Shown here piece by piece: positions 7,103 through 39,762 of a stretch of DNA of 47,909 nucleotides (the first letter of the stretch is position 1; every line of letters begins with the position of its first letter). The notes below the pieces were generated by a model. The model had not been told where the DNA came from. It ran no database searches and worked only from the letters and a program-made list of their open reading frames with translations. The translations under genes and the position numbers were made by a program. The stretch comes from Candidatus Methanovirga aequatorialis. GTDB taxonomy: Archaea; Methanobacteriota; Methanobacteria; Methanobacteriales; Methanobacteriaceae. The stretch is taken from NCBI GenBank assembly GCA_031282205.1, contig JAITEE010000121.1, positions 1-47,909 of the forward strand, in the 5' to 3' direction.

Positions 7103-7870
7103 CTATTGACTTAATTCAACAATTGAATCCTTATTATAATAAACTCTTTCTGGACCAAAACCGATTACTCCATCACTACGAGGATAAAATGAAGGTAAAA
7201 TAGTATTTATATTGTAATAAACTTGGAATAACTTCTTTTTTGTATTACCATATTTATCAATATTTACATCCAGATATTGAGAATTTAAAGGCTCTGGTTT
7301 GGCTTGTTGGTGATGATAATAATAAACTGGAAATTGTCTGTATTTCAGATCTGGATATTTTTCTTGCATTCTTCTCATCGCCTCATGACAAGCATGATGA
7401 TCTGGATTTCCATCACCAGTCGTCGTGTAAAATATTGTGTACCCTTCCTTCAGATATAAATTCTCCATGACTTCAAATGCTTCGTCGGTGGTTAACGTAC
7501 CATCATCAATATGATGCATTGAATAATCACTCACGTTAAGTATCATCATCACCTGCTTAAAAGAATCCTCACGAATTATGCCTTTTCGACCCGCCTCACT
7601 CTCATTTTTAGAAATATTAAGGTTGTAATAATTATCCACTATACGTAGTGTAGGAGACAAACTATTTCCTGACGTCATTAAATCAAAATGAAGCTTATAT
7701 CCTTTTTCTATCAACAGGAATATTAGACCTCCAGCACCAATGGTTTCATCGTCAGCGTGAGGAAGAATAAAGGCTACTTTTTTTGAGTCGTCATTCAAAT
7801 GACAGAATATGTATACAGATAACAAAGATAAAACAACAATCCCTACCACCATTAAAACATGTTTATTCAT
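7103..7870 (-). CDS. PIG-L family deacetylase, membrane-anchored (copy 1)
   Basis: The PIG-L/LmbE family are zinc-dependent N-acetylglucosamine deacetylases. The metal-binding motif PHADDE is present (H38, D40, D41), with the second conserved motif NPDHHACHEA (about 155-164). A single N-terminal membrane helix (about 4-24) should anchor the enzyme facing outward, so a surface glycan is a plausible substrate. The ATG at 7870 is preferred to an upstream in-frame GTG at 7879 because AGGTGAT overlaps the latter. It is a tandem paralogue of the gene at 7946-8722, and the two share almost identical C-terminal halves. Confidence 0.83.
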   Translation of the reverse strand: MNKHVLMVVGIVVLSLLSVYIFCHLNDDSKKVAFILPHADDETIGAGGLIFLLIEKGYKLHFDLMTSGNSLSPTLRIVDNYYNLNISKNESEAGRKGIIREDSFKQVMMILNVSDYSMHHIDDGTLTTDEAFEVMENLYLKEGYTIFYTTTGDGNPDHHACHEAMRRMQEKYPDLKYRQFPVYYYHHQQAKPEPLNSQYLDVNIDKYGNTKKKLFQVYYNINTILPSFYPRSDGVIGFGPERVYYNKDSIVELSQ

Positions 7871-7945
7871 ACTTATCACCTATACATCGCCACCACTTTA
7901 ATTTGATTAAAAGTTTATTTGATCAAAGTTAAATCAAATATTTCA

Positions 7946-8722
7946 TTAAATAGAATTATAATAAATTCTTTCTGGACCAAAACCGATTACTCCATCACTA
8001 CGAGGATAAAATGAAGGTAAAATAGTATTTATATTGTAATAAACTTGAAACATTCTTTTTTTCATGTTACCATACATATCAACATTCACATCCACATATT
8101 GAGAATTTAAAGGCTCTGTTGGTTTTGTTATGCCTCTATCGTAGAAATAATAATAAATTGGAAATTGTCTATATTTCAGATCGGGGTATTTTTCTTGCAT
8201 TCTTCTCATCGCCTCATGACAAGCATGATGATCTGGATTTCTATCACCAGTCGTCGTGTAGAACACCGTGTACCCCTCCTTCAGATATAAATCTTCCATG
8301 ACTTTATAAACCTCGTCGGTGGTTAAGGTACCGTCATCAACATGGTGCATTGAATAATCATTCACGTTAAGTATCATCATCACCTGTTTAAAAGAATCCT
8401 CACGAATCATTCTCTTTCGATCTTTCTCACTTACATTCTCTGGTAATCTCACATTATAATAATTATCAACTCTAATTGTACCATGACCTATACCATTTCC
8501 TGATGTCATTAAATCAAAATGAAGCCTATATCCTTTTTCTACCAGCATGGATATTAGACCTCCAGCACCAATGGTCTCATCGTCAGCGTGAGGAAGAATA
8601 AACGCTACTTTTTTATCACTATCATTAACAACAGGATTTATTGAATAAAGGGTTGATAAAAATAAGAGAAACAATGTTATGAATAACAAAGTTATCACTA
8701 AAATATGCTTCAATATTTTCAC
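7946..8722 (-). CDS. PIG-L family deacetylase, membrane-anchored (copy 2)
   Basis: This tandem paralogue of the preceding entry has 258 residues, an N-terminal membrane helix (about 7-28), PHADDE at 44-49 (H45, D47, D48) and NPDHHACHEA at about 162-171. The copies differ mostly in the membrane anchor and in the loop around residues 75-105. Long DNA stretches near the 3' ends are nearly identical, which suggests recent duplication or gene conversion. The 75-bp gap suggests one transcript. The substrate is not known; proximity to a sortase suggests envelope work (inference). Confidence 0.83.
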   Translation of the reverse strand: MKILKHILVITLLFITLFLLFLSTLYSINPVVNDSDKKVAFILPHADDETIGAGGLISMLVEKGYRLHFDLMTSGNGIGHGTIRVDNYYNVRLPENVSEKDRKRMIREDSFKQVMMILNVNDYSMHHVDDGTLTTDEVYKVMEDLYLKEGYTVFYTTTGDRNPDHHACHEAMRRMQEKYPDLKYRQFPIYYYFYDRGITKPTEPLNSQYVDVNVDMYGNMKKRMFQVYYNINTILPSFYPRSDGVIGFGPERIYYNSI

Positions 8723-16579: not shown

Positions 16580-17755
16580 CTAATCCACTAACTTAATGTT
16601 AGTTTTACTAAAGGCAAACCCTGTTGTTCCAACAGTTTGAATGTTTATAGCAGCATTTATATCTCGATCATGTTTGCTGTTACATTCAGGACAGGTCCAG
16701 GTACGTACTCCTAAACCAAGTTCCAGTAACTTGTACCCACAATTACTACAAGTTTTAGATGTATATTTTTCGTTTACTACTTTGAATTTTTTATCGTACC
16801 AGTCTGATTTGTATTCTAATTGTCTTTTTATTTCATACCAGTGTTGATCAGCTGTTGTCTTAGCAAGTTTCTTATTTTTTAATCCTAATTGATTGTTCAC
16901 ATTACCAACATAGATCTGATCATTATTGTTTACAATTTTAGTAGTAATTTTATGGATAAAGTCTTTTATATAATTTTTTTTATTGATGTAAGTTTGAGCT
17001 AGCTTGACTTTCGTCTTACTCCAATTACAACTATCTTTTATTCTATTAGCTATTTTTTTACCTAATATTTTTATTTTATTATCAAAAAATTTTAGTTGTA
17101 TTTTACCTGATTTTTTACCGTTACTACAAGTAATGGCATCTTTGAGTCCTAAATCTATACCTACAATTTTGCCTGTTTTAGGTTTACTTGTAATAATAGA
17201 CTTAGATACATTGATACTAACATACCATTTGTTATTTTCTTTACTAATGGTACCAGATAAGATTTTACCTTTTATGGGTCGACTATATTTCATTTTAATA
17301 GTTTCTTTCAATTTAGGTATCTTTAATTTACCATCTATTACTTTGATGTAAGTTGTTGTGAAACTTTGAACAGGATTATGACGACTTTTATATTTAGGCA
17401 TACCAAAACCACTTTTCTTGAAATTTAACATAGATTGAGTAAAAGAATGAGCCGTTCTCATAGTATTATGACTATCTATATCATTCAACCAAAGAAAAAC
17501 TTTTTTTAACTTTGTATTATAATTTTGTGTAATATATTTACTAAAAGGATTGAAATTATAACCTTCAGGTATTGAATTACCATAACAATAATTCTTATAT
17601 AAAAACTCTTGCAATCCTTTTAATTGATTGAATACGAATCGACTACCACCAATAGATTGAATTAAGTATTTTTCTTGTTCAAATGAAGGATAGATTCTAT
17701 ATTTATAAGATTTATTTACCTCTTTGAATTTTAATATATTGTTTGATAACGTCAA
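16580..17755 (-). CDS. tnpB: TnpB-type RNA-guided nuclease homologue
   Basis: The 391-residue OrfB/TnpB protein has an N-terminal helical and beta-barrel region (1-190), RuvC-I with D201 (VGIDLG), RuvC-II, a zinc ribbon (C336, C339, C355, C358) and RuvC-III (KHDRDINAAINI, D363/D365). The usual RuvC-II Glu is replaced: the motif reads IYVGNVNNQLGL, with G284 where Glu is expected, while VNEKYTS supplies a nearby E329. Some TnpB lineages are known to have this rearranged pattern, so it need not be inactive. It starts with TTG at 17755 behind GAAGGAA. No transposase accompanies it. Confidence 0.85.
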   Translation of the reverse strand: MTLSNNILKFKEVNKSYKYRIYPSFEQEKYLIQSIGGSRFVFNQLKGLQEFLYKNYCYGNSIPEGYNFNPFSKYITQNYNTKLKKVFLWLNDIDSHNTMRTAHSFTQSMLNFKKSGFGMPKYKSRHNPVQSFTTTYIKVIDGKLKIPKLKETIKMKYSRPIKGKILSGTISKENNKWYVSINVSKSIITSKPKTGKIVGIDLGLKDAITCSNGKKSGKIQLKFFDNKIKILGKKIANRIKDSCNWSKTKVKLAQTYINKKNYIKDFIHKITTKIVNNNDQIYVGNVNNQLGLKNKKLAKTTADQHWYEIKRQLEYKSDWYDKKFKVVNEKYTSKTCSNCGYKLLELGLGVRTWTCPECNSKHDRDINAAINIQTVGTTGFAFSKTNIKLVD

Positions 17756-27792: not shown

Positions 27793-28851
27793 TTAAATAT
27801 TATAATATTCATTTCTTGCTTCAACCATAGCTTTAATATTAGTAATAGGAGATAATGGAGCCACACCACAACTTGGAGCTAAAATATCCACGCCATCATC
27901 CAAAGCTTTTTTAACCTCGGCTTTAACATCATCTACTGTTCCTGTAAACAAAGTTTGACTTGTAGATATGTTACCTACAATCTTTGAAGCACTACCTTTT
28001 TTGTTTATTGAACAACAGTCACCAGCTGGTGATGAAGAAGAATGGCTAAGAATGTCTTCTTTGGCCTTAACTACATCCACTTTTTCCTCGATACTGATCC
28101 CATCATAGCCAATACTGGCCATGTCAAGAATTATACCCTGTGTAGAACCACAGATATGGAGAACCTTTTTCACATCAATAAAGCTTGCTAAATCTTCCAA
28201 ACGTGGTTTAGCAATAGATTTAAACTGTAAAGGATCGATGAGTTCAGGAGATGCAGTTGGCTCAGCAACACATATAACATCTGGTTCGAGTTCAGAAATA
28301 GCTTCCACATAGTCCATAGTCGCATCAAGAGAAATTTCAACTTGTTCTTCTACCTCGTTAATGTCAGTCTTTAAAAGCTTCACAAGATTTTCAACACCAA
28401 GTAAATGACCCGCTAAAGTAAAAGGTCCTGTGATTCCAACAACTATCGGAAGATCTTCATGAGTTTCTTTTAAAATCTCAATAGCTTTTAAAACAGTTGG
28501 AATTCTACCATTATCCAAAAAATCACTTGGAATATCTATATTATTAGTATTTGAAAACGGTGCAGATAAAAGGTGAGGAGGTTTATCTTTTCCACCTAAA
28601 TCCACTTGAGCTCCAATTGCTTCTGCCTCAACCGTAAGACAAAACGGTATTCTTGCACATTCAAGACCTGCAAGTTCATATAAAGAACTTCCTAATTTAG
28701 CCATTTTTTCAGGATCTGTATGTGCTTCTGTCCAAGAAGCTCCTGTTTTATCCATGGCTTCAACAACTGCTAGTTGTGTAACACTAACAACTGGTGCAAC
28801 ATCTACATCATTTCCAGAAAGTGCTGATAAAAGATTTTCTTTTAAATTCAC
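27793..28851 (-). CDS. mtaA: Methylcobamide:CoM methyltransferase MtaA
   Basis: MtaA transfers the methyl group from methyl-MtaC to coenzyme M. It is a UroD-fold zinc enzyme; the zinc ligands H-x-C...C are visible in LHICGST (H232, C234) and APSCGVAP (C328), numbered from the GTG at 28851. That start fits AGAGGTGA at the right spacing; an upstream in-frame GTG (28860) overlaps that site. An insertion rich in Ser and Cys (about 268-287, SHSSSSPAGDCCS) before KIVGNIST is not usual for the family. Confidence 0.93.
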   Translation of the reverse strand: MNLKENLLSALSGNDVDVAPVVSVTQLAVVEAMDKTGASWTEAHTDPEKMAKLGSSLYELAGLECARIPFCLTVEAEAIGAQVDLGGKDKPPHLLSAPFSNTNNIDIPSDFLDNGRIPTVLKAIEILKETHEDLPIVVGITGPFTLAGHLLGVENLVKLLKTDINEVEEQVEISLDATMDYVEAISELEPDVICVAEPTASPELIDPLQFKSIAKPRLEDLASFIDVKKVLHICGSTQGIILDMASIGYDGISIEEKVDVVKAKEDILSHSSSSPAGDCCSINKKGSASKIVGNISTSQTLFTGTVDDVKAEVKKALDDGVDILAPSCGVAPLSPITNIKAMVEARNEYYNI

Positions 28852-28886
28852 AAAATTCACCTCTAAGTTTATTTATAGTATTATTT

Positions 28887-29444: not shown

Positions 29445-30068
29445 TTAAAACAGTAGTTTCTTCGCAATAGCTATTTCACCGATACCGATCATACCAACGA
29501 AAAATCCTTCAAGACCTCCAGTCGCCCATATAGCTTCTCCAAAGGTAGTGGTTTTGATCTTCTTCAGATATTCCTCTGGTTTGATCTCCTTTCCAACATC
29601 CTTTCTATACATTGCGGTTGATGCATCGATCAGATCATCGAAGGTAATATCTAAATTTTGGGAAATTTCATTATAAATATCAAAAACACTTTTTTCGTAC
29701 ATTTCAGATAGTTGTTCGAGGATAGTACATGATCGAATAATACCTACCACATGATTTTCCCTATTTAAAACAGGTAGGGTGAATACTTTTGAACCTGAAA
29801 GATTTAAAATAGCTAAACGTGCAGAATCATCTGCATATACAGAGACAACCTCATCAAAACTATTCATAACCTCTGAAATTAGTTTTTTATTTTCTCTTAA
29901 ACCTTTAGTAACATTAAGAGATGTGACCCAACCAATTAAGGACATATCTTCATTTAATACTGGCATATTAAATCTCTTTGATTCTTCCATTCTAATCGAA
30001 ATTTCTTCAATTGAATCATTGGTATTTGCATAAAGGAAATCCGTACTCATGAGTTCTTCAGCTTTCAT
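29445..30068 (-). CDS. CBS-domain protein with a C-terminal extension
   Basis: The 207-residue protein has two CBS motifs (about 1-58, MSTDFLYANTNDSIEEIS; and about 66-120, MNSFDEVVSVYADDSARLAI), which usually sense adenine nucleotides or SAM. A C-terminal region of about 85 residues ends in a Gly-rich segment (ATGGLEGFFVGMIGIGEIA) and is not recognised. It lies within the methanol region between mtaA and the unknown gene at 30303. A regulatory role in methanol metabolism is inference only. Confidence 0.75.
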   Translation of the reverse strand: MKAEELMSTDFLYANTNDSIEEISIRMEESKRFNMPVLNEDMSLIGWVTSLNVTKGLRENKKLISEVMNSFDEVVSVYADDSARLAILNLSGSKVFTLPVLNRENHVVGIIRSCTILEQLSEMYEKSVFDIYNEISQNLDITFDDLIDASTAMYRKDVGKEIKPEEYLKKIKTTTFGEAIWATGGLEGFFVGMIGIGEIAIAKKLLF

Positions 30069-30302
30069 TCTCTCCCTCTTAACTTTTTCATGATTTTAAT
30101 TATTTAAATATACATTCAATAAATAAAATTTTACAAAAAATAAATTACAGTTGTTAGTTTTATATCTAGCTTTATATCATTTATATAATTATTTCCATTA
30201 TTATAACATTACTATAACTTAATGGCTCATGAGTATTTTGGCACATAGTTTTTATATGTCATAATATATTTATATGAGTTCTGTGAAATATAATAATGCC
30301 CT

Positions 30303-30872
30303 TTAAACCCCATTTTCTCTTTTTAATGAAAAACTCACAATTATTGTAGCAATTTTAGGATCTTCAACAACCTCATATCTTTTTTTAAGATGAACATCCG
30401 CATGCACTGATGGACTACAAGATACAACGTTATCAATCCCTTCAATACATTCCAATCCCCCAAACCTTACTGGAGGTAAAATAAAAAATTGTTTTTTAGG
30501 ATTTAAATCCTTATTTTTTAAATCATCTTTGAATATCACAAAGTCATCACTTAAAAAATGAGCATTTTCATCGTTTTTAAACCTCTCTTTCTCTTCATCA
30601 GAAAATATATCATGTCCTAATGTTTTACCATCTTCCCTTACAAGAATCAATGTAGAACTTTCAGGGGGTTTAAATCGACCATCTTTAAATAAAACTAAAG
30701 AAAAATCTCTTCTAAAACACTCTTTCAAACCCTCATTAATAACGGGTATTATCTCATTTTCCTGATTAGAGTCAATATCAATTACGTTAGTAATATCTTC
30801 ATTTGTAAGCTTTTCTACCTTTAAAACCCCATCCATTTCTTTAATAACTTGTATCACGTCATCAACTGGCAT
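30303..30872 (-). CDS. Hypothetical protein in the methanol region
   Basis: The 189-residue soluble, acidic protein has no signal peptide or membrane helix. I do not recognise the family. Features seen are an N-terminal segment MPVDDVIQVIKEMDGVLKVE, a middle FFILPPVRFGGLECIEGID and a Ser-Cys segment VVSCSPSVHADVHLKKRYEV with one Cys and two His that could bind metal. The ending SFSLKRENGV is basic. Its base composition matches its neighbours. It lies 234 bp upstream (in transcription) of the CBS gene. Confidence 0.7.
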   Translation of the reverse strand: MPVDDVIQVIKEMDGVLKVEKLTNEDITNVIDIDSNQENEIIPVINEGLKECFRRDFSLVLFKDGRFKPPESSTLILVREDGKTLGHDIFSDEEKERFKNDENAHFLSDDFVIFKDDLKNKDLNPKKQFFILPPVRFGGLECIEGIDNVVSCSPSVHADVHLKKRYEVVEDPKIATIIVSFSLKRENGV

Positions 30873-32333: not shown

Positions 32334-33962
32334 TTAAACTTCATACACATCTAAAAACTTACCGTAATCAAAAACTTTTTCAGGACAAACAAGTACGCAT
32401 TTTTGACATCCCAGTCCTGCACATTTATCTGCTCTTAAAATTATCTTCCCATCTTTTTCCATTGATATAGCACTTTCAGGACAATTTTTAATACAAATTA
32501 AACATTTTGTACAATTAGCAAATTGAGCCTCCAATCTTAAACCCACTTCAACAATACTCAATCCATTGATCCCTAAATCGTATATGTCCCTTTCAAATAT
32601 CCTATGAATCTTAGGATCAGTCTCGACTTGAGGAATTTTTTGAAAACCATATTTCTCAAGCCATTGGTTATACATCCAAAACGGCATCCCCTCTTCATAA
32701 ATTGAAAGCTCCAAAGAATAAATTTTTTCAAAAGTTTCAGATATCGCAAGCATGATATGATTACTTCGCATTTTATCAGCAATTTCTTGCAATTCATCTA
32801 AAATAGTAGGATTTAAAGCTATATCTTTAGCCATATCAAGAGAAGTATTACCCACTTGAAAAATTTCCCTTGATGAACTTGGAATCTGACCTATATTTAA
32901 AGATTTAAGAGGATCCACATAAAAACCCGAAGCACCAGCCATGTAAACTTCATCAATATCATCTAAAAGTATATCAGCCTTTTCAGCTAATGTCAAGTGA
33001 GCCGCTCTAAATGCACCTAATGCTTTACCAACATTAACAAGATCCTCTTCTCCAACGTACACATCATCTTGCAGATGAATCTTTTTATCATGAGTTTTAA
33101 TTTTAGAATCATGAATTAAATCATTTGAGATACCCAAACTATATGCCGCTATAACTCCAGTACCAGTTATACCCTTAGCCTTAACATCATCTCCTGATCT
33201 TTCAAGGACTTTCCCATTTGATGGGTCAACAACATCTCCATCAGCAATTAAAAGATCCTCATTTAAAACAACATTTTTCCAATAGACTCCTAAATCTTCT
33301 AAATCACAAATAGCACCAGGTGATGCAAGTCTGCCCTTATCTATCATTTGACCTTCAATAGCAGGGCCTGCAGCTGCAGAACAAGTAAAAACCTCTCCAT
33401 CAATTACTAAAGCCATTTCAGCATTTGTACCAAAATCCGTTACTAAAAAGATTCCTTCCCTATTTAAAACACCAGTTTTATAAAGCATAGCAAGAGCATC
33501 GGCCCCAATTTCATGCTGAATAGCAGGAGGAATATAAACAAAGGAATCATCTAAATCTACAAGACCAATTTCCTTAGAACTTACTATCGTCGAATCTCTT
33601 GAAGGAACTTCTATTCCCAATCTTTCTGCTGCATTCTCACCCCAGTAAGCTAAATCCCTAATTTCAATCCCATTAAATAAAGAAAGTTGTATAGGGTTAC
33701 CACAAACAGCAACCCTTTTAATCTTTTTTTTATCAATGTTCAATCCATCTATAACCTTATTGACAGCATCAATCAAGAGATTATGTGCAGTTTCAAGAGA
33801 TACATTCAACGCAAAATTAAGATGATCAACAACATTAGCACCAGGTATAGGATGTCTAAGCGTGATCACAGAAGATACCACTCCCAAAGTATTTATATCT
33901 AATGATAAAGCCCTAATACCACTCGTTCCAATATCAATAGCAATCGCATATTCTTCACTCAT
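32334..33962 (-). CDS. RamA-like corrinoid reductive activase (ASKHA plus 2[4Fe-4S])
   Basis: The protein has about 542 residues. The N-terminal ASKHA ATPase-like domain (AIDIGTSGIRALSLD; later FLVTDFGTNAEMAL and GASGFYVDP) belongs to the RACo/RamA group, which reduces inactive Co(II) corrinoids to Co(I) at the cost of ATP. The C-terminal ferredoxin motifs are C487, C490, C493, C497 and C517, C522, C525, C529 (numbered from the in-frame start at 33971). Next to mtaC and mtaB it should reactivate MtaC. RamA proper serves methylamine systems, so the name is only by similarity. Confidence 0.87.
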   Translation of the reverse strand: MSEEYAIAIDIGTSGIRALSLDINTLGVVSSVITLRHPIPGANVVDHLNFALNVSLETAHNLLIDAVNKVIDGLNIDKKKIKRVAVCGNPIQLSLFNGIEIRDLAYWGENAAERLGIEVPSRDSTIVSSKEIGLVDLDDSFVYIPPAIQHEIGADALAMLYKTGVLNREGIFLVTDFGTNAEMALVIDGEVFTCSAAAGPAIEGQMIDKGRLASPGAICDLEDLGVYWKNVVLNEDLLIADGDVVDPSNGKVLERSGDDVKAKGITGTGVIAAYSLGISNDLIHDSKIKTHDKKIHLQDDVYVGEEDLVNVGKALGAFRAAHLTLAEKADILLDDIDEVYMAGASGFYVDPLKSLNIGQIPSSSREIFQVGNTSLDMAKDIALNPTILDELQEIADKMRSNHIMLAISETFEKIYSLELSIYEEGMPFWMYNQWLEKYGFQKIPQVETDPKIHRIFERDIYDLGINGLSIVEVGLRLEAQFANCTKCLICIKNCPESAISMEKDGKIILRADKCAGLGCQKCVLVCPEKVFDYGKFLDVYEV

Positions 33963-34071: not shown

Positions 34072-34824
34072 TTATTTTTGATATGGTGATGGCAACTCAC
34101 AAACGTCCGTATCCTTAGCCAAATATGCATACAACAACGCCGCTATAATAGAACCTACAACGGTTGCAACAAAGTACAAAGGCAAAAGTATACCAATCGA
34201 ATATGATAAACCAACACCACCATTAACTATCAAATCAAGCACATAAGGACCAAAGTATCTTATTGGGGTAATACCTGCACCCGTAATAGGCCCTAAAAAC
34301 ACTATAAGAGCGGTAACAGTTAAACCTACAGATATACCTGCAAAACCAGGTTCTGCTTTTGAATCAACAGCCACACCCATAATAATAGACATAAGTGCAA
34401 AAGCACCTATAACTTCCGCAACGAATGTTGGTAATAAACCAATCCCAGGATTCGGTGCAACAAAATTTGCTGCCACTGTAGAAACTGGCAAAATTAGATA
34501 TACAAACAAGGTCGCAATAACAGAACCAATTAATTGAGCTACTATATACAGTATAGCATCCCCTCCAGAAATATGTTTAGTTATCCACAAACCAATGGTA
34601 ACTCCTGGACTCAAATGGCACCCTGAAACTTTACCCAACATATATATAACCGCTAGAGCCATAATACCAAATACAAAACCAACGGCCAACCAATCGCTAA
34701 GCCCTGTTAATGTTGGGGCCCCTTTAGGCAAAAATGCTACAACAACTGACCCTAAACCAAAAAATACCACTATAAAGGCAGCTAAAACTTCTGATAACAT
34801 CTTTTTTCCAATTCCACAACTCAT
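34072..34824 (-). CDS. MIP-family (aquaporin-like) channel, atypical NPA motifs
   Basis: A 250-residue six-helix MIP channel. The duplicated signature loops are present but altered: SGCHLSPGVTIGLW has SPG (72-74) in place of NPA, and TGAGITPIRYFGP has TPI (186-188) in place of NPA, with R189 kept. Start at 34824 follows AGAGGAG; an in-frame upstream start (34845) is less likely. It lies between mtaC and the activase gene, so a role in methanol or small-solute entry is plausible but inferred. Confidence 0.85.
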   Translation of the reverse strand: MSCGIGKKMLSEVLAAFIVVFFGLGSVVVAFLPKGAPTLTGLSDWLAVGFVFGIMALAVIYMLGKVSGCHLSPGVTIGLWITKHISGGDAILYIVAQLIGSVIATLFVYLILPVSTVAANFVAPNPGIGLLPTFVAEVIGAFALMSIIMGVAVDSKAEPGFAGISVGLTVTALIVFLGPITGAGITPIRYFGPYVLDLIVNGGVGLSYSIGILLPLYFVATVVGSIIAALLYAYLAKDTDVCELPSPYQK

Positions 34825-35072
34825 AAAAACTCCTCTCATCAACACGATTTTATCTTCATATAAATTCTTAAAGATATGAAATCAAAATTTTCACCATCTT
34901 AACTCATAAAAACCTCATAATATATATTACAAAATTAAGTACGTATTAATAATTATAACAACATAATAATTATAATACATGAATAAAAATATTGATATCA
35001 TGCCATTAGTAATATAACATAAAATACAACATCAAAGTATAAAAACTTTAGTGCCATGAAGTATTCATGAGC

Positions 35073-35105
35073 CAAAAAAAAAGAGTACTCTAATTAAGAG
35101 TACTC
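35073..35105 (-). terminator. Intrinsic terminator at the end of mtaC
   Basis: On the minus strand a 9-bp stem made of two GAGTACTC units (35098-35105 and 35083-35090, loop about 5 nt) is followed by a run of nine T (35082-35074). The stem overlaps the last codons and the stop of mtaC. Confidence 0.75.
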
Positions 35106-35915
35106 AGGAACAAATTCTCCAACAATATCAGAATATTCTTTACGAATATCTTCCCAATCTTTTTTGTCTTGCAATATAGCATCAGCCAATTTTGGAGTGT
35201 GATATGCTTCAACACCATAGAAACTCATAGGGAAAGATTCCACATAATCTTTTCTTACAGCTCCACCACCACAGCCAACTGGAACATTGAATCCTGCTTT
35301 TTCAAGTGCTTCTACAACTTTAGGAAAAGCTGTCATGGTTGTTGTCATAAGTGCAGTTCCAGTTAAGAAAATTGGATTGTGCTCTTTAACAGCTGCCACA
35401 ATTCTATCTGCAGGAACGTCTCTTCCTAAATCTATGGCTTCAAATCCTCCAGCTCGTAAGAACATTAAAATTAAGTTCTTACCTATATCATGAGGATCAC
35501 CTTCGGCTACAAAAGTAACCACGGTTGCTTTTGTTTCACTCTTATGTCCTAAAACTGCTTCACATTCTTTTACACTTTCCATCATCGCATCACCAGATAA
35601 CATAAGATCAGGTAAGAAATAAATACCTTTTGTGTAAAGAAGACTTACAGCGTCCATTCCTTTCATTAAACCATTGTTAATTATATCAATTGGAGATACA
35701 CCATCATCCAACGATTTTTTAACCTTGTCCATTGCTCCATCCCTGTCCTGATTAAGTATGGTTAAAGCAATTGATCTGAAAGGGTCATCTTTTGGAAGAA
35801 TTTCTACAATCTCTGGGTCGTCCTCAGGTTTTGTAGCAGCTCCCTCTATTTTTACGTTGTATCTTAAAAAAACATTCTCTTGATTGATTTTATTTTCTAA
35901 TGCATCATAACTCAT
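35094..35915 (-). CDS. mtaC: Methanol corrinoid protein MtaC
   Basis: The 273-residue corrinoid protein has a helical cap (about 45-125) and a Rossmann B12 domain with the DPHDIGKNL motif; H142 is the lower cobalt ligand. FLTGTALMTTTM (about 184-195) and VGCGGGAVRKD (about 218-228) line the corrinoid. It accepts methyl from MtaB and donates to MtaA. The strong RBS is AGGAGGTTAT. The gap of 63 bp to mtaB indicates an mtaBC operon. Confidence 0.97.
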   Translation of the reverse strand: MSYDALENKINQENVFLRYNVKIEGAATKPEDDPEIVEILPKDDPFRSIALTILNQDRDGAMDKVKKSLDDGVSPIDIINNGLMKGMDAVSLLYTKGIYFLPDLMLSGDAMMESVKECEAVLGHKSETKATVVTFVAEGDPHDIGKNLILMFLRAGGFEAIDLGRDVPADRIVAAVKEHNPIFLTGTALMTTTMTAFPKVVEALEKAGFNVPVGCGGGAVRKDYVESFPMSFYGVEAYHTPKLADAILQDKKDWEDIRKEYSDIVGEFVPEYS

Positions 35916-35978: not shown

Positions 35979-37364
35979 TTATAACTCATAATTTTTAGGA
36001 TCAAAATCGCCTACTTTTCTTGAATATCTCTTAATACAATCCTTAGTAAATTTATCTGATTCGGTTGGTAAACCTTCAAGCACTTTAAGAGCATTATCCA
36101 ATGTATCTCTTTCAAATCTTGTTAAATACATTTTTTTAGCATCAACAGCTTCGTTAATAATCGCTCCTGCCTCAAGAGCAGCTGCTCTTGCTCTAAGATA
36201 AGGATCGTCACCATATTTAACTATAGCTTCTCCTATTCTATAAGCGTTATCATAAGCCAATATTAAAGCTTGAGGATCTCTATACTTATCTGTAAGAACG
36301 TAAAGATCTCTTAACATCTCAGCTTGACCAGTTTCAATAGCTGTATTCATTAAAGCAGCTTCATAACCTAAGCTTTGTAACCAAACTTGAGGAGTGGTAC
36401 CACCCATCTCTTCACGATGATAAACTGACTCGTTACTCCACACATCAGCAACAGCAGCCACTAAGTTACCCATCAAATCGGAATGAGCACAGGTAGCATT
36501 TTTACCTTCTGTAGATATTGGAACACCACTAACAGCCTTCACGATTGGGTTTTCATAACCACAATCTTTTAATGGTCCTTTAGCACCACATTCTACAGCA
36601 ACTAAACTTCTTGCAGCTCCCATAGCTCTTGTAATTGCGGCTAAAGTGTGAGAATTGTCACTACCTAACAAGCCTGCTGCAAGAAACATCGCAGTATTAG
36701 ACTGGGAACAGTCGGTATCTCCACCAGGAACGGTGTTATGTTTGTTACATATACCAACAATTTCAGTCCACATATGTTCCATGTCCATACTACCAAGAAC
36801 ACCTATACCGAAAAGAATAGCCTTTATATCTCCTCTTGAAATTCCGAAATCGGATACAGATTTTCCACCAGTGGTTTCAATAGAAATAATATGAGCACCA
36901 TTTTCAGCACAAGCCTCTACGGTTTCCATAACTTTACCATGTAAATCAGAATTCCAAAGTCCTGTACCTTTTTCTTCATCCCTAATATCTGCAGGTGTAG
37001 CCCTTAAAGCAGTTTTAATACCATATTCATCATGGAAATTCTCAAGAACTTCAACTTGACCTTCCGTACATTCACCTCCCCAATCAGGGTTGTAGGTTTG
37101 CTGAGCTATGTGCTCATGTTCTAAAATAAAAGTAGGTAAACCTATGTTCACAGCTCTAACAGCAGCACTATAAGAAATACCTTTATATTCAGAAACCATC
37201 CTCTCTTTAGATACCTCAGTACCTTCAGCTGGAGCCACATTCAACTCAGGAACCACATAACCAGCACCCACTGCAAAATCTTTACCTAAACTTGATGGAT
37301 ATTTTGCGTGTCCAAACAACATCTTCTCAGGATTTTCATATTCCATTTGAGTAAACCTTTTCAT
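35979..37364 (-). CDS. mtaB: Methanol:corrinoid methyltransferase MtaB
   Basis: The 461-residue zinc enzyme cleaves the C-O bond of methanol and methylates MtaC. Likely zinc ligands are E163, C219 (GGDTDCSQSN) and C268 (GPLKDCGYE), one lower than the E164/C220/C269 set known in Methanosarcina barkeri MtaB, so the active site is intact. The start is set by GGAGGAAATTA. It is first in the mtaBC operon and has a long AT-rich leader with repeats. Confidence 0.97.
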   Translation of the reverse strand: MKRFTQMEYENPEKMLFGHAKYPSSLGKDFAVGAGYVVPELNVAPAEGTEVSKERMVSEYKGISYSAAVRAVNIGLPTFILEHEHIAQQTYNPDWGGECTEGQVEVLENFHDEYGIKTALRATPADIRDEEKGTGLWNSDLHGKVMETVEACAENGAHIISIETTGGKSVSDFGISRGDIKAILFGIGVLGSMDMEHMWTEIVGICNKHNTVPGGDTDCSQSNTAMFLAAGLLGSDNSHTLAAITRAMGAARSLVAVECGAKGPLKDCGYENPIVKAVSGVPISTEGKNATCAHSDLMGNLVAAVADVWSNESVYHREEMGGTTPQVWLQSLGYEAALMNTAIETGQAEMLRDLYVLTDKYRDPQALILAYDNAYRIGEAIVKYGDDPYLRARAAALEAGAIINEAVDAKKMYLTRFERDTLDNALKVLEGLPTESDKFTKDCIKRYSRKVGDFDPKNYEL

Positions 37365-39083: not shown

Positions 39084-39131
39084 TATTTATAAGTATTAGC
39101 AAAATAAAGACTATGATTCTTGAGGGGTGAG
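39084..39131 (+). promoter_or_regulatory. cbiM promoter and RBS
   Basis: TATTTATAAG (about 39084-39093) is a TATA box and predicts a start near 39115. GAGGGGTGAG (39122-39131) is a strong RBS five bases before the ATG at 39136, which shows that the upstream in-frame GTG (39127) is part of the RBS and not the start. Confidence 0.6.
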
Positions 39132-39135
39132 ATGT

Positions 39136-39762
39136 ATGCATATACCTGATGGAGGATTTGTACCTTTTTGGCAATGTATAGTTTACTATGTGATTATAAT
39201 AGTGATTGGATACTTTGCAATTAGGTGGGTGAAGAATAACCTTGATGAAAGAAAAATACCTTTACTTGCAGTATTTGGAGCTGGAATATTTGCAATACAG
39301 ACAATAAATATTCCCCTCCCAGTGGGGAGTGATTTACACATAATAGGAACCGCATTAGTAGCCATATTACTTGGAAGTCCTTATGCCAGTTTTTTAGTTA
39401 TGTTAATAGTAATCATAATACAAAGTTTGATCTTTGGAGATGGGGGGGTAACCACCTTAGGAGTTAACGTACTCAACATGGGTGTCATTGGATCATTTTT
39501 AGGATACTACCTTTTTAAGAGGTTGAAACTAATAATAACCGTTAATCAAGCTGTTTTCATTGCATGTTTCTTATCAGTATTCATTGCAGCAATAGCTCAT
39601 TCTTTTGAATTATTTTTCGCAGGAACATTAACATTACAAGTAGCTTTATTAACCATAGGATTACCTTACTTATTAATAGGTATCGTAGGTGAAGGAACCG
39701 TTAGTACAATAGTTTACATAGCCATCAAAAACCTTAGACCTGATTTAATCAGTGAAGATTAA
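39136..39762 (+). CDS. cbiM: CbiM-family cobalt ECF transporter S component
   Basis: The 208-residue membrane protein has about six helices. It begins MHIPDGG, the family's metal-binding N-terminus (His2 with the free amino group binds Co or Ni). The start at 39136 is set by the RBS and by this conserved start. Partners CbiN, CbiQ and CbiO are absent here and must be elsewhere, if present. Cobalt supply would serve the corrinoid of MtaC (inference). Nickel is the alternative substrate in this family. Confidence 0.83.
   Translation: MHIPDGGFVPFWQCIVYYVIIIVIGYFAIRWVKNNLDERKIPLLAVFGAGIFAIQTINIPLPVGSDLHIIGTALVAILLGSPYASFLVMLIVIIIQSLIFGDGGVTTLGVNVLNMGVIGSFLGYYLFKRLKLIITVNQAVFIACFLSVFIAAIAHSFELFFAGTLTLQVALLTIGLPYLLIGIVGEGTVSTIVYIAIKNLRPDLISED

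Follow-up and report, generated by a model that had tools for sequence, protein, structure and literature searches.

Beside the methanol methyltransferase genes of Candidatus Methanovirga aequatorialis lies a gene for an aquaporin-like protein of the MIP superfamily in which both NPA motifs are replaced, by SPG in loop B and by TPI in loop E, and which we regard as a candidate channel that is probably specialised for methanol use. A functional link of this MIP to methanol metabolism is well supported: the motif change is conserved and under selection, every genome that carries it (3 of 3) also has mtaB, and the gene sits beside mtaC wherever linkage is readable. All positions refer to the window, i.e., the whole stretch of 47,909 nucleotides that was analysed. 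The source organism is a member of Ca. Methanovirga, a termite-gut genus of methanogens that have not been cultured, come from lower termites and in part live inside gut flagellates; no mention of an SPG/TPI MIP was found in three papers on this genus (PMC10684969, PMC13135261, PMC11287868). Altered NPA motifs, up to the loss of both asparagines, have been described for other MIPs, and an aquaporin gene in a broken methanol operon is likewise on record (see below); new are the occurrence of a conserved SPG/TPI subfamily among archaea and its association with intact mtaABC genes.

The MIP gene is an intact open reading frame that starts with ATG and encodes 250 amino acids, and its product matches the Pfam MIP profile (PF00230) with an E-value of 1.6e-37 and 129.9 bits at a cut-off of 25. 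The translation reads GCHLSPGVTIGL around loop B (also given as SGCHLSPGVTIGL) and GAGITPIRYFGP around loop E (also given as TGAGITPIRYFGP), with only the proline retained of each of the two NPA motifs that mark the superfamily. The sequence-only reading had called this protein aquaporin-like with both motifs altered, which the Pfam match and the translation bear out; since NPA exceptions occur in the superfamily, membership rests on fold and profile. Compared to 43 other MIPs of the Methanobacteriota phylum, among which Asn72 and Asn186 are invariant, the protein is altered at 17 of the 61 positions of at least 90% conservation, including both asparagines, both motif alanines (to Gly and Ile), the helix-6 proline and Gly/Thr packing residues of helices 1 and 4. 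The arginine of the ar/R filter (R189) and the buried glutamates of helices 1 and 4 (E12 and E137) are invariant positions that have been kept.

Features of the MIP gene and of the methanol methyltransferase cluster in the window
Feature	Position	Strand	Evidence
MIP channel gene, SPG/TPI variant	34072..34824	-	Pfam MIP E 1.6e-37; AF2 pLDDT 86.8, pTM 0.87
Loop B Ser72-Pro73-Gly74 (SPG) replacing NPA	34603..34611	-	sequence; N and A there in 43/43 relatives
Loop E Thr186-Pro187-Ile188 (TPI) replacing NPA	34261..34269	-	sequence; N in 43/43, A in 41/43 relatives
Thr221 replacing helix-6 Pro	34162..34164	-	P in 42/43 relatives
ar/R H2, Phe52	34669..34671	-	alignment
ar/R H5, Ile174 (AqpM Ile187)	34303..34305	-	alignment
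ar/R LE1, Ala183 (AqpM Ser196)	34276..34278	-	alignment
ar/R LE2, Arg189 (AqpM Arg202)	34258..34260	-	alignment
TATA-like stretch taatatatatta, possible own MIP promoter	34918..34929	-	inspection only
Terminator-like hairpin GAGTACTCTTAATTAGAGTACTC across mtaC stop codon, then T run	35083..35105	-	RNA fold -13.2 kcal/mol, z -4.5; conserved in Ca. M. basalitermitum (L003)
mtaC, methanol corrinoid protein	35094..35915	-	NF040669, 478 bits, cut-off 450
mtaB, methanol:corrinoid methyltransferase	35979..37364	-	NF040651, 750 bits, cut-off 720
Corrinoid reductive activase (RamA-like)	32334..33962	-	TIGR04270, 770 bits, cut-off 500
mtaA, methylcobamide:CoM methyltransferase	27793..28860	-	NF040654, 470 bits, cut-off 400

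These changes are concentrated on the pore centre and on helix packing and spare the ar/R filter. The closest NPA/NPA relatives have an identical filter (F-I-A-R), which departs from the F-I-S-R of AqpM in a single residue and is thus of AqpM type, with a change from Ser to Ala shared with those relatives; the SPG/TPI MIP of a further carrier genome (G002, see below) has Val at the position of Ile174. Because its pore centre is SPG/TPI and not the NPA/NPA of AqpM, we class the protein as AqpM-like but not as AqpM itself. It has neither the Trp-Gly-Phe-Arg filter of the aquaglyceroporin GlpF nor the histidine at H5 of AqpZ, and it scores 97.5 against the AqpZ model PRK05420 with its cut-off of 256. 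In MIPs it is chiefly ar/R that selects between solutes; the main task of the NPA region is to keep out protons and cations. It was therefore loose wording to describe the NPA motifs as the selectivity centre, and the "changed pore" of the sequence-only reading applies to the pore centre but not to the selectivity filter, which matches that of the closest NPA/NPA relatives.

SPG/TPI is found in exactly 3 of 152 Methanobacteriota genomes, a count obtained by a protein search and, independently, by a DNA pattern search (the degenerate pattern for GITPIRYFG matches the window at 34250-34275). Besides the source genome (G000), the carriers are its closest named relative, Ca. Methanovirga basalitermitum (G129, locus L003; 92% identity), and a genome of a different genus, G002 (74% identity). 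The six motif residues do not differ between the three, and this recurrence in two independently assembled relatives, each with mtaB, shows the motif pair to be conserved and, together with the pattern matches in exactly these genomes, rules out chance or an error of sequencing or assembly. A wider scan of genome contigs gave, among the matches listed, only Ca. M. basalitermitum, and viral carriage was set aside after a scan of viral contigs with no relative of this MIP among them. The MIPs of G002 and Methanovirga cluster in the tree with support of 100/100, and their MtaB proteins are sisters with support of 98/96. Both groupings are consistent with a single shared origin, and for this reason the three carriers are not independent observations and may go back to one event.

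MtaB is present in 30 of 139 genomes of the family, and all three SPG/TPI genomes are among these 30; the probability of this outcome is about 0.009 if carriers are taken as independent, which they are not. In the two carrier genera, mtaB and the SPG/TPI MIP are jointly present in the same three genomes and jointly absent from five others (four Methanovirga and G003), in which mtaC, mtaA and activase are missing as well, all of these being drafts of 63-93% completeness. SPG/TPI homologues sitting mostly in non-methylotrophs would have spoken against a role in methanol use, and this is not what we find, as 3 of 3 carriers possess mtaB. Conversely, 27 of the 30 mtaB-bearing genomes, including those of Methanosphaera-like obligate methanol users, do without an SPG/TPI MIP, so that this channel is not generally required for methanol use. 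The MIPs read from mtaB-bearing Methanosphaera-like and Methanobrevibacter-like genomes have NPA/NPA or NPA/NPS motifs, and by contig positions no MIP lies near mtaB in the Methanosphaera-like and in most of the mtaB-bearing Methanobrevibacter-like genomes. A general linkage of MIP and mta genes in the family was not found, with a MIP beside mtaB only in G000 and G129.

The window holds a complete methanol:CoM methyltransferase cluster of mtaA, mtaB, mtaC and activase, in which mtaC and mtaB lie upstream of the MIP gene on the same strand, the activase downstream and mtaA 5 kb beyond. The order mtaB-mtaC-MIP is identical in Ca. M. basalitermitum, where a convergent GTPase gene follows the MIP gene and both activase and mtaA are on other contigs, so that the mtaC-MIP neighbourhood is all that the two species have in common. 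Thus, the placement between mtaC and activase that the sequence-only reading noted is true of this genome, but adjacency to the activase is particular to it and only that to mtaC is shared. Around 16 relatives have the activase directly after mtaC, which marks the MIP gene as an insertion. Linkage is unreadable in G002 because its MIP gene is about 450 bp from a contig end and its mta genes are broken; this draft has two distinct mtaB copies and two mtaA pieces (L083, L084, L121, L122), all of which break off at the same residue where their contigs end; this suggests a duplication of mta genes or an assembly that mixes strains. Neither mtaC nor activase was found among its contigs.

Although the MIP gene is adjacent to mtaBC on the same strand, a conserved terminator-like hairpin lies between them, and its presence at the mtaC stop codon in both Methanovirga species suggests a separate MIP transcript. 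The MIP gene may have its own promoter, given TATA-like stretches seen by eye some 90-95 bases ahead of its start codon, which are weak evidence because the genome is AT-rich. Elsewhere in the window, a cbiM-like cobalt uptake gene (39127-39762, plus strand) lies upstream of and divergent from mtaB and could plausibly supply corrinoid synthesis, and the region between mtaA and activase (29445-30872, minus strand) encodes a CBS-domain protein and a 189-aa protein without NCBIfam match, possibly regulators or accessory proteins. By eye from the translations, two tandem similar genes at 7103-8722 (minus strand) have the look of PIG-L type deacetylases, and an open reading frame at 16580-17755 (minus strand) resembles IS200/IS605 OrfB/TnpB-type transposases with CxxC zinc pairs near its end.

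As the best explanation, to which we would give slightly less than even chances, we propose that a six-helix, two-half-helix MIP of the AqpM lineage arose by duplication of an ordinary NPA/NPA AqpM-type gene, settled next to mtaBC in a few termite-gut Methanobacteriales and passes methanol inward. Methanol, and perhaps other small uncharged solutes, would diffuse down its gradient into the cell and be consumed there by MtaB and MtaC, with F-I-A-R retaining the narrow, hydrophobic gate of AqpM type. At the start of a half-helix, Asn can be exchanged for Ser or Thr, both of which cap helices well. The pair of capping asparagines gives way here to hydroxyl caps with a shorter side chain and a hydroxyl in place of the amide donor, and the alanines that pack across the pore to a small/large pair of Gly and Ile that apparently compensates in volume; both points draw on general knowledge of MIP structures. 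Such exchanges would leave the fold intact but take away the two amide donors that together orient water and contribute to cation exclusion. A stricter version, less likely than not, would see in these proteins a dedicated methanol channel: a subfamily of archaeal MIPs that became fixed in a few methanogens of termite guts, favours small alcohols over water through SPG/TPI and serves methanol-dependent methanogenesis. Against methanol as the solute stand the ordinary, unlinked MIPs in obligate methanol users of the family, the mtaC-MIP hairpin and the ease with which methanol passes through lipid bilayers by itself. In addition, AqpM is known mainly for a weak conduction of water (PMC6912568, PMC3287591).

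The link to methanol could be real and the solute another one, e.g., CO2, ammonia, H2S, ethanol or other one-carbon compounds, or the channel could balance water and turgor during growth on methanol. We consider this unlikely. The unchanged AqpM-type ar/R filter speaks for it, as do AqpM relatives, which conduct water and have been suggested as routes for CO2 (PMC3287591, PMC6912568), but it leaves unexplained why the motif change accompanies mta genes and adjoins mtaC, and the genome also keeps an ordinary NPA/NPA AqpM.

It is rather doubtful that the MIP gene is a drifting duplicate that came to lie beside mtaC by accident, be it an ordinary water channel or a gene heading to loss. The SPG/TPI trio does form a long branch in the tree (1.2-1.3 changes per column), carriers are few and a separate transcript is likely, but dN/dS of the MIP gene between the two Methanovirga species is 0.05-0.075 and not above that of mtaB, mtaC or the genome's orthodox AqpM, which shows strong purifying selection. 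Moreover, its reading frame is unbroken in all three carrier genomes, the motif changes are fixed across 26% divergence and the MIP is carried only together with mtaB. The AF2 model has helices at residues 5-31, 42-67, 73-81, 87-111, 130-154, 159-181, 188-201 and 210-236, that is, six membrane helices and two re-entrant half-helices that are predicted to start at residues 73 and 188, right at the altered motifs. Foldseek places AqpM (2evu) first and the A. fulgidus AQP (3ne2) among the top PDB matches, with TM about 0.85 for both. Low dN/dS and this complete AqpM-like predicted fold make decay of the gene unlikely; it looks like a working gene rather than a relic, and pseudogene formation or drift as the sole explanation is improbable given dN/dS and intact frames.

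Loss or closure of the pore, which would leave a structural, sensor or scaffold membrane protein for methyltransferase or activase, is improbable: it would fit the 17 of 61 changed positions, which include both asparagines, the helix-6 proline and the packing residues of helices 1 and 4, but the ar/R residues and the buried E12 and E137 are retained and the predicted fold is that of an ordinary channel. Least probable of all is a relaxed exclusion of charge that lets protons, cations or small anions pass, possibly tied to corrinoid reduction or ion gradients. In its favour, the NPA centre contributes to proton exclusion (PMC3287591) and both amide donors are gone; against it, the ar/R arginine is kept, the half-helix dipoles should persist and a methanogen would pay dearly for a channel that leaks.

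Regarding the origin of the proposed methanol channel, the best sequence match is AqpM of Methanothermobacter marburgensis (2evu/2f2b; E about 3e-45, TM 0.85), with which it shares Cys-His ahead of the loop B motif and from which it differs, apart from SPG/TPI, in shorter loops A and C, a helix-6 change from GP to AT and another tail. NPA/NPA MIPs of Methanobrevibacter-like genomes that are linked to DUF2193 are about 50% identical and share with it the ar/R filter, the C-terminal tail DVCELPxP and MxCxI at the N-terminus, but lie downstream of a DUF2193 gene and away from mta genes. An AU test of one clade with the DUF2193-linked class (p 0.06) or with the AqpM-like class (p 0.36) rejected neither. 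The shared tail and filter nonetheless suggest duplication from the DUF2193-linked class as the best reading.

In the available portions of the sources, natural MIPs with Asn replaced at one or both motifs include one of Segniliparus rotundus with TPV/VPA, in which both asparagines are replaced (PMC6912568), bacterial GLPs with SPA and a Trichoderma aquaglyceroporin with SPA/NMA (PMC6912568, PMC7927018); they differ from our protein in lineage and residue sets, and those portions describe no link to methanol genes. Desulfofundulus kuznetsovii TPOSR has an aquaporin gene inside a disrupted methanol methyltransferase operon (PMC10907483), which is alike in placing a MIP among such genes but unlike in that the host is a bacterium and the operon incomplete. 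If methanol is conducted, the SPG/TPI MIP would represent a channel dedicated to a substrate of methanogenesis and would suggest an investment in methanol scavenging by some Methanobacteriales of termite guts, in a genus with members able to live inside flagellates. The protein would then also offer a natural test of the role of the two NPA asparagines, being a channel conserved without either and having a close NPA/NPA relative in the family for comparison.

Two observations concern other MIPs of these archaea. AqpM-type NPA/NPA MIPs of Methanobrevibacter-like genomes (L064, L067, L070-L073) lie directly downstream of a DUF2193 (PF09959) gene of about 499 aa, a pair also seen in a more distant genus (G134:C1:435300-437839); none of the searched Methanovirga genomes has DUF2193, nor do two Methanosphaera-like genomes. 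The second MIP of the source genome (L002, G000:C151:20292-21014) has NPA/NPA motifs and the ar/R filter F-L-G-R and follows a gene resembling geranylgeranyl reductase, a membrane-lipid enzyme.
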